From an uncultured Synechococcales cyanobacterium (GTDB lineage: Bacteria; Cyanobacteriota; Cyanobacteriia; Thermosynechococcales; Thermosynechococcaceae), in contig CADCWO010000257.1 of NCBI GenBank assembly GCA_902806435.1, positions 1 through 54,969 on the forward strand: a DNA stretch of 54,969 nucleotides, given 5' to 3'. Positions 1 to 49,592 of the stretch are shown in pieces. A program made the position numbers and the translations under genes. Numbering within the stretch: the stretch's first letter is position 1; each line of letters opens with the position of its first letter. The notes beneath the pieces are model-generated. The model saw nothing but the letters and a program-made list of their open reading frames with translations, was not told where the DNA came from and did no database searches.

Positions 1-297
1 TGCACCCGCAAAGGGGGAAAGATTCTCTTTTTTGCCGAGTTCCCGGACGAGATGGAAATACCGATTAACCCCAACCTGCTCTACCGCCGGGAAATTGATC
101 TGATGGGCAGCTACAGTTCTTCTTACCGGGTTCAGTCTCTCGCTGCCGACATTGTGTTTAAAAAACAAATTGATGTAGATGCCCTGATTAGCGATCGCTA
201 CTCCTTACGGGACTTAGATGCTGCCGTGGAACGCGCCGTCGCTCCAGGGCCAGAAACCTACAAGATTCTCATCTATCCAGAAGCGGTAACGTCGTAA
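1..297 (+). CDS. zinc-dependent dehydrogenase, C-terminal fragment (truncated by window edge)
   Basis: The frame is open from the first base and ends at a TAA at 295-297. The 98 visible residues look like the C-terminal part of a medium-chain (sorbitol/threonine dehydrogenase-like) zinc-type dehydrogenase: the glycine-lysine strand (TRKGGKILFF) that follows the Rossmann fold, a conserved NPNLLYRREIDLMGSYS stretch, and a closing YKILIYP strand. Catalytic and zinc residues lie upstream of the window, so substrate cannot be inferred. A start codon is not visible; the ATG at 52 is internal. A decayed second copy of this same 3' end lies at about 1394-1782. HIP1 (GCGATCGC) occurs inside the gene near 190. 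Confidence 0.75.
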   Translation, partial: CTRKGGKILFFAEFPDEMEIPINPNLLYRREIDLMGSYSSSYRVQSLAADIVFKKQIDVDALISDRYSLRDLDAAVERAVAPGPETYKILIYPEAVTS

Positions 298-1930: not shown

Positions 1931-2080
1931 TAAGGCTGGAGCGGAGGAACCATTCCAGGGGGCGAATCTCTTCCATCTCTTCTACTAATTTAAGAGATAC
2001 AGCCAGAGAAGGACATCTCTCAGTCCTAGCCCGGCAGCTAACTTCGTCGGCGTTGAGAGGAGACTGAAGAGCCAGCATTT
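1931..2080 (+). promoter_or_regulatory. ydaO-yuaA type (c-di-AMP) riboswitch, upstream of the antiporter gene
   Basis: The conserved blocks of the ydaO-yuaA leader occur in order: GAGCGGAGGAACCA (about 1939-1952), GGGGCGAATC (about 1958-1968), a variable stem region, then CCCGGCAGCTAAC followed by TTCGTCGGCGTT and GAGAGGAGA (about 2030-2063). A closing helix can pair GCTGG at 1935-1939 with CCAGC at 2072-2076. This family binds cyclic di-AMP and often controls potassium, osmotic-stress and cell-wall genes, including in cyanobacteria. The next gene on this strand is a cation:proton antiporter about 400 nt downstream. The expression platform is unclear: a weak stem (CAGAC 2109-2113 with GTCTG 2138-2142) follows, and there is no obvious T-run. 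Confidence 0.85.
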
Positions 2081-2475: not shown

Positions 2476-4638
2476 ATGCATCTAGACACTGTTGTCCTGG
2501 TCCTGATTGAAGTCTTAATCGTGATTGGGCTTTCCCGGTTGATGGGATTAGGGTTTCAAAAGATTCACCAACCACTGGTGATTGGGGAGATTGTTGCTGG
2601 GATTATGCTAGGTCCTTCTTTGCTGGGGTTAGTTGCCCCTGACTTAGCAGGAGCGTTGTTCCCAGCGGAGGCGGTGCCCTTTCTGAATGTGCTCTCGCAA
2701 GTGGGCTTAATTTTCTTCATGTTCTTGATTGGCCTGGAACTAGACCCAAAGTACCTCAAGGGCCAGATGGACATTGCGATCGTAACGTCCCACGTCAGTA
2801 TTCTGGTGCCATTCGCTCTCGGTACACTGCTGGCACTGCTACTTTATCCGATCTTGTCGGATGCCAGTGTTTCATTTACGGCTTTTACCCTCTTTCTGGG
2901 ATCAGCCATGTCGATTACTGCTTTCCCGGTGCTGGCGCGGATCATCACTGAGCATAATTTACAGGGTACTCGCTTAGGCACCCTCGCTTTGACCTGTGCT
3001 GCCGTGGATGACGTTACCGCCTGGTGCTTGTTGGCATTGGCGATCGCGGTTGCCAATACCAACAGCATGGTGGGGGCCTTGCCGACTTTAGCGTGGTCAG
3101 CTCTTTATATCGCCTTAATGGTGACTGTAGGACGGAAGCTGCTCCAGCGGCTCTCAAATTACTACGACCGGATGGGCCGGCTCTCTCAGTTCGCTTTGGC
3201 GGGAATTTACATGGGGGTGCTAGTTTCGGCCTTGATCACGGAAATCATTGGCATTCACCTGATCTTTGGCGCCTTTTTGCTCGGGGCAATCATGCCCAAA
3301 AATGGCGGGCTAACTCACGAACTTGCGATTAAAACAGAAGACTTTGTCCTCACCTTTCTGTTACCTGTTTTCTTCGCCTATAGTGGCCTGCGCACACAAA
3401 TCGGTTTATTGAATACCCCCAGGTTGTGGCTGATTTGCGCCCTTGTTGTCGCTGTCGCGATCGTTGGCAAATACGTGGGCACCTATGTCGCTGCTCGAGT
3501 GAATGGGATAGATCACCGAGAGTCTTCTTCACTCGGATGGTTGATGAATACACGGGGCCTGACAGAACTGATTGTGCTGAACATCGGTTTGAATTTGAAT
3601 GTCATCTCCCCGGTTATGTTCACCATGCTTGTGATCATGGCCTTAGTCACCACGTTTATGACTGCTCCCCTGCTGGAGTGGACCTATCCAAAACGACTGA
3701 TCAAGTTAGATATGGTAGAGCCAACGGCAGAGGTGGAACCCGACTATAAGGTGCTGGTGCCGATCGCTAATCCCAATACGCAAAAGGGTTTAGTTCAACT
3801 GGCAGCGATGATTGCCTTTGATGCTAATAACCCATCTTCAAAACAGTCGGCCGTCTATCCCCTCAGCTTAATCGGATTGGAGGGGGACTACGCTTTTGAG
3901 AGTATGCCTGCTGAGGTGACTCGTCAAGTCAATAAGCGGCGGGAGCGCCTAGAGGAAATTGGGCAAAGCTTAGAGCCACCAGAGCTGCGTGCCTTGATCC
4001 ACCCTATGGTTCAGGTCGCGAACGATATCGGGCCAGAGCTCGCCCGAATTGCTGAGGCAGAGCGCATGAACCTAATTTTACTGGGCTGGCACCGCTCGAC
4101 CTTTAGACAAAACCGCTTAGGTGGGCCTGTCGGCCAAATTCTCAACTTAGCACCCGTCGATGTCGCAATTTTTGTGGAAAAAGAACCCGATTATGCTTGG
4201 CAGAATTTACTGGTTCCCTACGCCGGCACGATCCATGATGACTTGGGAATTGAATTAGGCTTACGCCTATTGGGGAGTAACCCCAACCGTCACTTAACCA
4301 TCCTGCGAGTCGCTCAGCGCAGCGAAGGTTCCGTGGAACTCAGCTATGAACTACGCGAAGCCCTAGACCAGTTACCTGATCAAGTTCATGAGCGCATCAA
4401 GCTGCCGATGGTTGAAACAGATAACAGGCTTGAAACCGTCATTTCAGCATCCAACGAGGCAGATTTAATGATTGCTGGGGCAAGCCGAGTTTGGGGAATA
4501 GAACGCCAAATCTTAGGCCGTCATACCGATGCTCTGGCAAGAGATTGTCAATCGTCCCTGTTAATTACCCGCAAGTACAGTAAAGTTAGCGCTCCTGTTA
4601 CTTCTGTTAGGACTCCAAACACATCAGCCCGTGCTTAG
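2476..4638 (+). CDS. CPA2 family cation:proton antiporter with C-terminal universal-stress-like domains
   Basis: Residues 1 to about 405 form a hydrophobic bundle of around 12 membrane segments with CPA2 (NhaS/KefB-like) hallmarks: the GEIVAGIMLGPSLLG block near residue 35 and an acidic FLIGLELDP segment near 80. Residues about 415-565 and 570-705 are soluble and look like two universal-stress-protein-type domains (KVLVPIANP, NLLVPYAG strands; glycine-rich nucleotide-loop-like segments). It should exchange K+ or Na+ for H+ across the plasma or thylakoid membrane, with the cytoplasmic tail sensing nucleotide or redox state. The c-di-AMP-type leader upstream fits ion homeostasis control. The next gene starts 10 nt downstream, suggesting co-transcription. 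Ion selectivity cannot be read from sequence. Confidence 0.88.
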   Translation: MHLDTVVLVLIEVLIVIGLSRLMGLGFQKIHQPLVIGEIVAGIMLGPSLLGLVAPDLAGALFPAEAVPFLNVLSQVGLIFFMFLIGLELDPKYLKGQMDIAIVTSHVSILVPFALGTLLALLLYPILSDASVSFTAFTLFLGSAMSITAFPVLARIITEHNLQGTRLGTLALTCAAVDDVTAWCLLALAIAVANTNSMVGALPTLAWSALYIALMVTVGRKLLQRLSNYYDRMGRLSQFALAGIYMGVLVSALITEIIGIHLIFGAFLLGAIMPKNGGLTHELAIKTEDFVLTFLLPVFFAYSGLRTQIGLLNTPRLWLICALVVAVAIVGKYVGTYVAARVNGIDHRESSSLGWLMNTRGLTELIVLNIGLNLNVISPVMFTMLVIMALVTTFMTAPLLEWTYPKRLIKLDMVEPTAEVEPDYKVLVPIANPNTQKGLVQLAAMIAFDANNPSSKQSAVYPLSLIGLEGDYAFESMPAEVTRQVNKRRERLEEIGQSLEPPELRALIHPMVQVANDIGPELARIAEAERMNLILLGWHRSTFRQNRLGGPVGQILNLAPVDVAIFVEKEPDYAWQNLLVPYAGTIHDDLGIELGLRLLGSNPNRHLTILRVAQRSEGSVELSYELREALDQLPDQVHERIKLPMVETDNRLETVISASNEADLMIAGASRVWGIERQILGRHTDALARDCQSSLLITRKYSKVSAPVTSVRTPNTSARA

Positions 4639-4647
4639 CCCTAAATC

Positions 4648-5118
4648 ATGAACCACTTCACCCCCAAATCTTTGATTTTTTATGCCGTGGCAATTGGCTC
4701 AGTGGTACTCCTGTTCAACCGAGTCACCGCCTACGGCAATCGTAACCTGCAAGCTTCCCAAAATATCGAGGGCAATTATCTGATTAAGGCTGAAAATTTG
4801 CCGCAGTGTCTAAAGTCTGACGATTTAGCCCTCAAGCTTCAGCAATCTGGAGTTTATCTAGTTGGCTCATTAACGAACAACTTGCGCAAGGCGGCAGCCT
4901 CAGCTGAAGAAAGACCGACCCTGACAGGAGAGTGGCGAGGCGGGCAGCTCTCCCTCAAGGGCCCGCTTAAAAATGAGGCCTGCCCTGACACTCAAATAGC
5001 GATCGCGGGTTCAATCACGCAGAAAGCCCTCAACGGCCAGCTCAATATTAATGCTGAGCCGCCTGTGAAGTTTACAGCCCAGCGACAACCAGTGGCTCAA
5101 ACCAAGGAAGGCAAGTAG
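4648..5118 (+). CDS. small membrane-anchored or secreted protein of unknown function
   Basis: The 156-residue protein has an N-terminal hydrophobic segment (about residues 9-25) that could be an uncleaved anchor or signal sequence, followed by a polar domain with two cysteines (about residues 54 and 111) that could pair outside the cytoplasm. I do not recognise the family. It begins 10 nt after the antiporter stop, so it is probably in the same transcript and may assist ion-stress physiology; that link is inferred from position only. Confidence 0.65.
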   Translation: MNHFTPKSLIFYAVAIGSVVLLFNRVTAYGNRNLQASQNIEGNYLIKAENLPQCLKSDDLALKLQQSGVYLVGSLTNNLRKAAASAEERPTLTGEWRGGQLSLKGPLKNEACPDTQIAIAGSITQKALNGQLNINAEPPVKFTAQRQPVAQTKEGK

Positions 5119-49162: not shown

Positions 49163-49592
49163 GGGAAAGAGCAGGCACAGGTGGTTGCGGGCTTACAGCT
49201 TTGGCCGTAAGTCTGAGGAAAGTCCGGGCTCCCAAAAGACCAAACTTGCTGGGTAACACCCAGTGCGGGTGACCGTGAGGAGAGTGCCACAGAAACATAC
49301 CGCCGTTTAAGAGTTACGAGGGCTGAGTTTTGAGTTACTAATTCAAAACTCAAAACTTAAACCGATTACGGTAAGGGTGCAAAGGTGCGGTAAGAGCGCA
49401 CCAGCAACGTCGAGAGGCGTTGGCTCGGTAAACCCCGGTGGGGAGCAAGGTTGGAGGGACAACGGTTGGTCTTTTACCAGTCCCGTCTTTTGAAACCGCT
49501 AGAGGTGTCTGGTAACAGACATCCCAGATAGATAACTGCCCTCCTAGCTTTAGCTAGGAGCACAGAACCCGGCTTATGTCCGGCTCTTTCCC
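49163..49592 (+). ncRNA. rnpB: RNase P RNA
   Basis: The conserved bacterial RNase P RNA blocks occur in order: GAGGAAAGTCCGGGCTCCC (near 49215), ACAGAAACATACCGCC, GGTAAGGGTGCAAAGGTGCGGTAAGAGC-type core, GGTAAACCCC, AGATAGATAACTGCCC and ACAGAACCCGGCTTATG. The ends pair: GGGAAAGAGC at 49163-49172 with GCTCTTTCCC at 49583-49592 (P1 helix). The variable arm holds an AT-rich 11-bp hairpin insert (49326-49357). Together with its protein it matures tRNA 5' ends. rnc follows 17 nt downstream. Confidence 0.97.
49326..49357. repeat. AT-rich 11-bp hairpin inserted in rnpB
   Basis: AGTTTTGAGTT (49326-49336) pairs exactly with AACTCAAAACT (49347-49357) around 10 nt. It lies in the variable P12-like arm of the RNA and differs in base composition from the rest of the gene. 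The AGTTTTGAGTT type is familiar as a dispersed repeat in some cyanobacteria. Confidence 0.7.

Follow-up and report, generated by a model that had tools for sequence, protein, structure and literature searches.

In Bacillus subtilis, ydaO is an off switch of the terminator type (PMC5575661). Within the cyanobacteria, the c-di-AMP riboswitch of Synechocystis controls slr0753, according to a review (PMC10117731), and a passage of Agostoni et al. that cites Nelson et al. 2013 places osmoprotectant genes under c-di-AMP riboswitches in this phylum (PMC5986932). Cation antiporters have been linked to the same messenger as proteins. CpaA of Staphylococcus aureus and NhaS5 of Synechocystis are proven or putative c-di-AMP binders (PMC5575661, PMC10117731), and NhaS2 is listed with NhaS5 as a putative c-di-AMP binding protein (PMC10117731).

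We identified a riboswitch of this known class, unusual in its probable target and informative in its leader, in a 54,969-nt stretch of DNA from an uncultured Synechococcales cyanobacterium (the window). It shares with ydaO/yuaA of B. subtilis the aptamer core, the P1 stem, the pseudoknot and an ion or osmotic transport gene downstream, but its target is a CPA2 antiporter and, whereas ydaO uses a terminator, the cyanobacterial platform looks translational and ends at a Shine-Dalgarno (SD) sequence. With the Synechocystis riboswitch it has in common the phylum, the riboswitch class and an ion transport target, although that target is slr0753 in Synechocystis and the CPA2 antiporter here. A search run without a positive control found no slr0753-like transporter in this genome. 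The antiporter resembles CpaA and NhaS5 in being a cation:proton antiporter tied to c-di-AMP, but the tie is protein binding in those two cases and would run through RNA in the window. We found no published report of an antiporter combining CPA2 and universal stress protein (Usp) domains as a riboswitch target in a literature search that left Nelson et al. 2013 aside.

The sole c-di-AMP riboswitch returned by an Rfam search of the window is a match to RF00379 at 1903-2067 on the + strand, as are the parts of the leader and the two genes behind it described below. It scores 62.4 bits against a gathering cut-off of 38, with an E-value of 3.8e-12 over the whole window and 5e-14 when 1780-2500 is searched alone. 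This is the covariance check that an earlier sequence-only reading had proposed, and it bears that reading out on the identity of the element. A permissive Rfam search of 1780-2500 brought no further family near its cut-off. The conserved core elements GGAGGAACC, GGGGC and CCCG.CAGCUAAC are all found in order, with a single tolerated change (CCCGGCAGC in place of CCCGUCAGC) that also occurs in another copy. The riboswitch is genuine and belongs to the RF00379 class, and its aptamer is a putative c-di-AMP binder.

The full aptamer extends over about 1881-2062, from the Rfam match and a 5' extension read from covariation in P1; the start of P1 lies about 17 bases 5' of the match start. The Rfam alignment is poor at this end, where it contains two non-standard P1 pairs. 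In a survey of 144 cyanobacterial copies, we located the element G(C/T)(C/T)TAA(T/C) ahead of the core in 115, and its first three bases pair with a 3' GGC or AGC in every one of these 115. The two sides change together (92 GCC/GGC, 13 GCT/AGC, 8 GCT/GGC and 0 GCC/AGC). By this covariation, the 5' strand of P1 in the window is GCC at 1886-1888, with its partner GGC at 2049-2051. The sequence-only reading had set the element at 1931-2080, and this start is too late; its statement that the conserved blocks occur in order was nevertheless correct. P2 is a hairpin at 1894-1938 by sequence and fold, with arms at 1894-1904 and 1929-1938 (CAGCCUUUAAC and GUUAAGGCUG, one bulge). A further stem, GGAC/GUCC at 2011-2026, covaries and carries the loop CUCUCA (2017-2022), which forms a pseudoknot with UGAGAG at 2054-2059. 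Core stems covary among the cyanobacterial copies, and across the 144 copies the pseudoknot partners switch jointly between classes (CUCUCA/UGAGAG, CUUCCA/UGGAAG and CCACUGAAU/AUUCAGUUG).

On the promoter side, the hexamer TANNNT is enriched 19-25 nt ahead of P1 among the 115 copies, with 71 occurrences in these seven positions, or about 10 per position in a zone outside which each position has about 2-3. Two candidate -10 elements stand in the window at the commonest gaps, 19 and 24, namely TAGGAT (1856-1861) and TATATT (1861-1866); no match to a -35 element was found for this candidate promoter. The enrichment supports a transcript start just 5' of the aptamer, at about 1868-1875. Farther upstream, 1503-1772 is a degraded second copy, 83% identical and with frame-breaking gaps, of the gene end at window positions 3-278, and it lies in the intergenic region ahead of the riboswitch.

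Downstream of the aptamer, the leader contains a platform of usual length. Its hairpin, H1 (2057-2109), is predicted to pair 2057-2061 with 2105-2109 and 2063-2066 with 2100-2103 (GAGGAGACTG with CAGTGTCCTC), and is common to leaders of the window type. In a swap test over 144 leaders, the own arms of H1 outscored swapped arms (p = 5e-5, a guide only because the leaders are related by descent). The 5' arm of H1 and the pseudoknot arm share 2057-2059, and thus the two structures cannot both form fully. When 2056-2059 are withheld from folding, a candidate anti-SD strand at 2087-2098 is predicted to pair with 2156-2167, giving a helix of 12 pairs, including G-U, over both the SD and a GTG start. 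This helix was matched in 11 of 1000 shuffles; over the whole family, all classes together, anti-SD/SD pairing was not significant (p = 0.57). The SD itself (AAAGGAGG, 2152-2159) sits at the usual start position of other copies and is followed by a seven-codon ORF, GTG...TGA (2165-2188, MIFLDSF), at the position where the first gene starts elsewhere. We also considered a general anti-aptamer pairing between a TGTCC element and an aptamer stem, which was dropped in favour of H1 because own pairs did no better than swapped pairs (p = 0.15).

The position of this start is that of a normal first gene. Most often, the first gene behind one of the 144 cyanobacterial copies encodes an ABC permease, a Usp protein or an slr0753-like transporter and begins about 90-130 nt past the aptamer, with median distances from the Rfam end of 94, 126 and 88.5 nt, respectively. 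The CitMHS/ArsB-like class of first genes is the one that we take to be slr0753-like. In the window, the GTG (2165-2167) lies about 98 nt past the Rfam end, close to the ABC-permease median of 94. This genome has three RF00379 copies in total and one diadenylate cyclase gene, and 98 of 194 relatives carry RF00379 as well. The other two copies, RS1 (ahead of a glycosyltransferase and an ABC transporter) and RS2 (ahead of a Usp gene), lie together on locus L064. RS1 is like the window copy through its 5' flank and its platform, and RS1-type leaders align with the window platform through an CAGTGTCC element to the SD. RS1 and RS2 differ from the window copy in that their first genes are intact, starting 158 and 125 nt past the Rfam end. 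Profile, blastx and tblastx searches of 2067-2475 found no remnant of a usp, permease or glycosyltransferase gene.

The first full gene behind the leader encodes, as had been proposed, a K+/Na+:H+ antiporter of CPA2 type (2476-4638, 720 aa). The Na_H_Exchanger domain passes its cut-off (PF00999, 7.7e-60), and the CPA2 model TIGR00932 gives 147.6 bits (5e-43), under its curated cut-off of 238.3. Of the two stress-type domains claimed earlier, one is a Usp domain above the Pfam cut-off (PF00582, 3.5e-13, residues 425-565); the second, at about 575-700, was placed by eye and lacks Pfam support. The KdpD-type c-di-AMP Usp motif (PMC8214093) is absent from the Usp region of the antiporter. A leader of about 400 nt had also been described, in agreement with the 424 nt between the 3' end of P1 and the antiporter ATG (408 nt if counted from 2067, where the Rfam match ends). 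It is not, as that description implied, simply one long expression platform, since the platform is of usual length and ends at its own SD and GTG (2165), and the antiporter starts 287 nt after the stop of the seven-codon ORF. A 156-aa protein with no assigned function (4648-5118) follows the antiporter after a 9-nt gap, and a homologue is present in all 80 named antiporter loci. Its gene is probably co-transcribed with the antiporter. The named antiporter orthologues are cyanobacterial without exception.

With a first set of relatives, the pairing of riboswitch and antiporter appeared unique to this genome, and this was overturned by a wider scan of named loci. Orthologues of the antiporter stand behind a riboswitch in Planktothrix rubescens PCC 7821 (L221), Planktothrix PCC 11201 (L243), an uncultured Scytonema (L233) and Rhizonema (L261), and members of a second CPA2-Usp subfamily do so in three further genomes (G055, G173 and G140; L264-L266). 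All seven riboswitches are Rfam-confirmed. Even so, a CPA2 antiporter as the first gene after the riboswitch is rare. The riboswitch scan gave no match in 76 of the 80 closest named antiporter loci, nor in any of the 29 loci L035-L063. In the antiporter tree, the window antiporter falls among Leptolyngbyaceae-like sequences that have no riboswitch, which argues for more than one joining. At least three separate origins of the pairing are likely, as read from a tree without the Scytonema and Rhizonema rows.

These relatives also suggest how a long leader may arise, since in most of the pairings the RNA between sensor and antiporter is unusually long. Planktothrix leaders to the antiporter are 274-278 nt long and those of Scytonema and Rhizonema 435 nt, and in the latter two a spacer ORF matches Usp proteins at its start and at its end with the middle missing. 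From its sequence, this spacer holds the remnant of a deleted usp gene. In the second subfamily, G140 and G173 have a normal-length usp gene between riboswitch and antiporter, and in G055 this gene is gone and about 600 nt are left. Set against G140 and G173, the Scytonema, Rhizonema and G055 leaders point to the long leader as the residue of a decayed usual first gene. By analogy, the window leader would also have lost its first gene. The suggested route is decay of the customary first gene, after which the gene behind it takes over both the sensor and a long leader.

The Planktothrix loci bear more directly on control in cis. An orthologue without a riboswitch (L255) groups with both Planktothrix sequences in the antiporter tree; it has kept the bases that precede the riboswitch (ATAGACAAAATTCAATCAATATG, TAACCT) and the distal leader, with the riboswitch itself absent. 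Provided that these common upstream bases form the promoter, the Planktothrix riboswitch would lie inside the antiporter leader. Control of the antiporter in cis is likely, because the pairing recurs in unrelated cyanobacteria and because in Planktothrix the riboswitch is flanked by a shared promoter region on one side and by the antiporter on the other. The presence and absence of the riboswitch in Planktothrix and L255 make the pair a natural test of its effect on the antiporter. The distal antiporter leader (L221 5850-6007, L243 5852-5989) is strongly conserved with L255 and may have its own control. In Planktothrix it holds a short ORF, MEMARFC(G/C)LLILGNHRYR. A CitMHS/ArsB transporter gene lies two genes behind the antiporter in Planktothrix, and a HEARO RNA (RF02033, L221 1115-1332) lies about 4 kb ahead of the riboswitch-antiporter locus.

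We consider it reasonably probable that the leader is that of an operon which has lost its first gene, and that its c-di-AMP riboswitch is an ordinary one with a platform of the translation type. This riboswitch would head the mRNA that carries the antiporter gene and the small gene behind it. Bound c-di-AMP would fix the aptamer and the pseudoknot 2017-2022/2054-2059, which would block H1 (2057-2109) and free the strand 2087-2098. The free strand could then pair with the SD and GTG (2156-2167) and turn off translation of the leader ORF. The start of this ORF would correspond to the site of a permease, glycosyltransferase or usp gene in other copies, here lost; with only the seven-codon ORF left, the antiporter would now be the first full gene. 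We suppose that the signal would reach it by way of the common transcript, perhaps through altered stability of the untranslated leader. The design of the platform suggests a translational off switch, the direction being that of ydaO in B. subtilis. The earlier reading holds for the riboswitch and the gene annotation; its proposal that one ion-stress messenger controls the antiporter is partly supported, and the coupling past the seven-codon ORF is a matter of inference.

Termination of transcription inside the long leader, as for the terminator-type off switch ydaO of B. subtilis (PMC5575661), is another conceivable means of control. The + strand between aptamer and antiporter does have a terminator-like match at 2238-2251, but it is weak, with a five-pair stem and a poor T tract, and the conserved hairpins of the cyanobacterial platforms inspected have no trailing U-run. 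We regard termination as very improbable. It is possible, though doubtful, that the riboswitch is an orphan left over after gene loss and that a separate promoter in 2190-2475 drives the antiporter, which c-di-AMP would then not control through this RNA. The platform has a ribosome-binding site of its own at its end, most antiporter orthologues lack a riboswitch, and the degraded gene-end copy at 1503-1772 shows that this intergenic region has undergone both decay and duplication. Against this, the pairings of the aptamer, the pseudoknot and the platform are all intact, riboswitch and antiporter came together in further lineages too, and the interval between aptamer and antiporter has only weak terminator-like matches on the + strand. 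A weak promoter-like match occurs at 2146-2174.

The short ORF may instead be no leftover but a functional upstream ORF, gated by the riboswitch and needed for antiporter expression. Its strong SD AAAGGAGG with a well-spaced GTG, and the 12-pair helix over both, would fit such a role, but we found no relative with the same ORF, and a gap of 287 nt is large for coupled translation; we think this unlikely. There is also a somewhat slim chance that a tiny leader ORF is what the riboswitch gates and that its translation, rather than that of the antiporter, sets the fate of the mRNA, so that the sensor of a lost gene controls an antiporter about 290 nt further on, an arrangement that would have evolved repeatedly. 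On the reading that we prefer, that of an operon leader with a lost first gene, the CPA2-Usp antiporter joins the genes under cyanobacterial c-di-AMP riboswitches, probably by several separate joinings. The locus is ordinary as a riboswitch and moderately interesting as a case of regulatory inheritance.

Several other RNA features were also observed. On L064 (4762-10072, G000:C132), RS1 and RS2 lie about 5 kb apart and frame an operon of a glycosyltransferase and an NMT1-type ABC transporter, together with usp; riboswitch pairs a few kb apart are also found in G003, G110, G119 and G136, among others. The CyVA-1 small RNA (RF02965) occurs near riboswitch clusters at L064 13979-14055 and L067 1398-1474. 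In the window itself, a class A RNase P RNA, interrupted in the middle by a long insertion, lies at 49168-49591 (245 bits).
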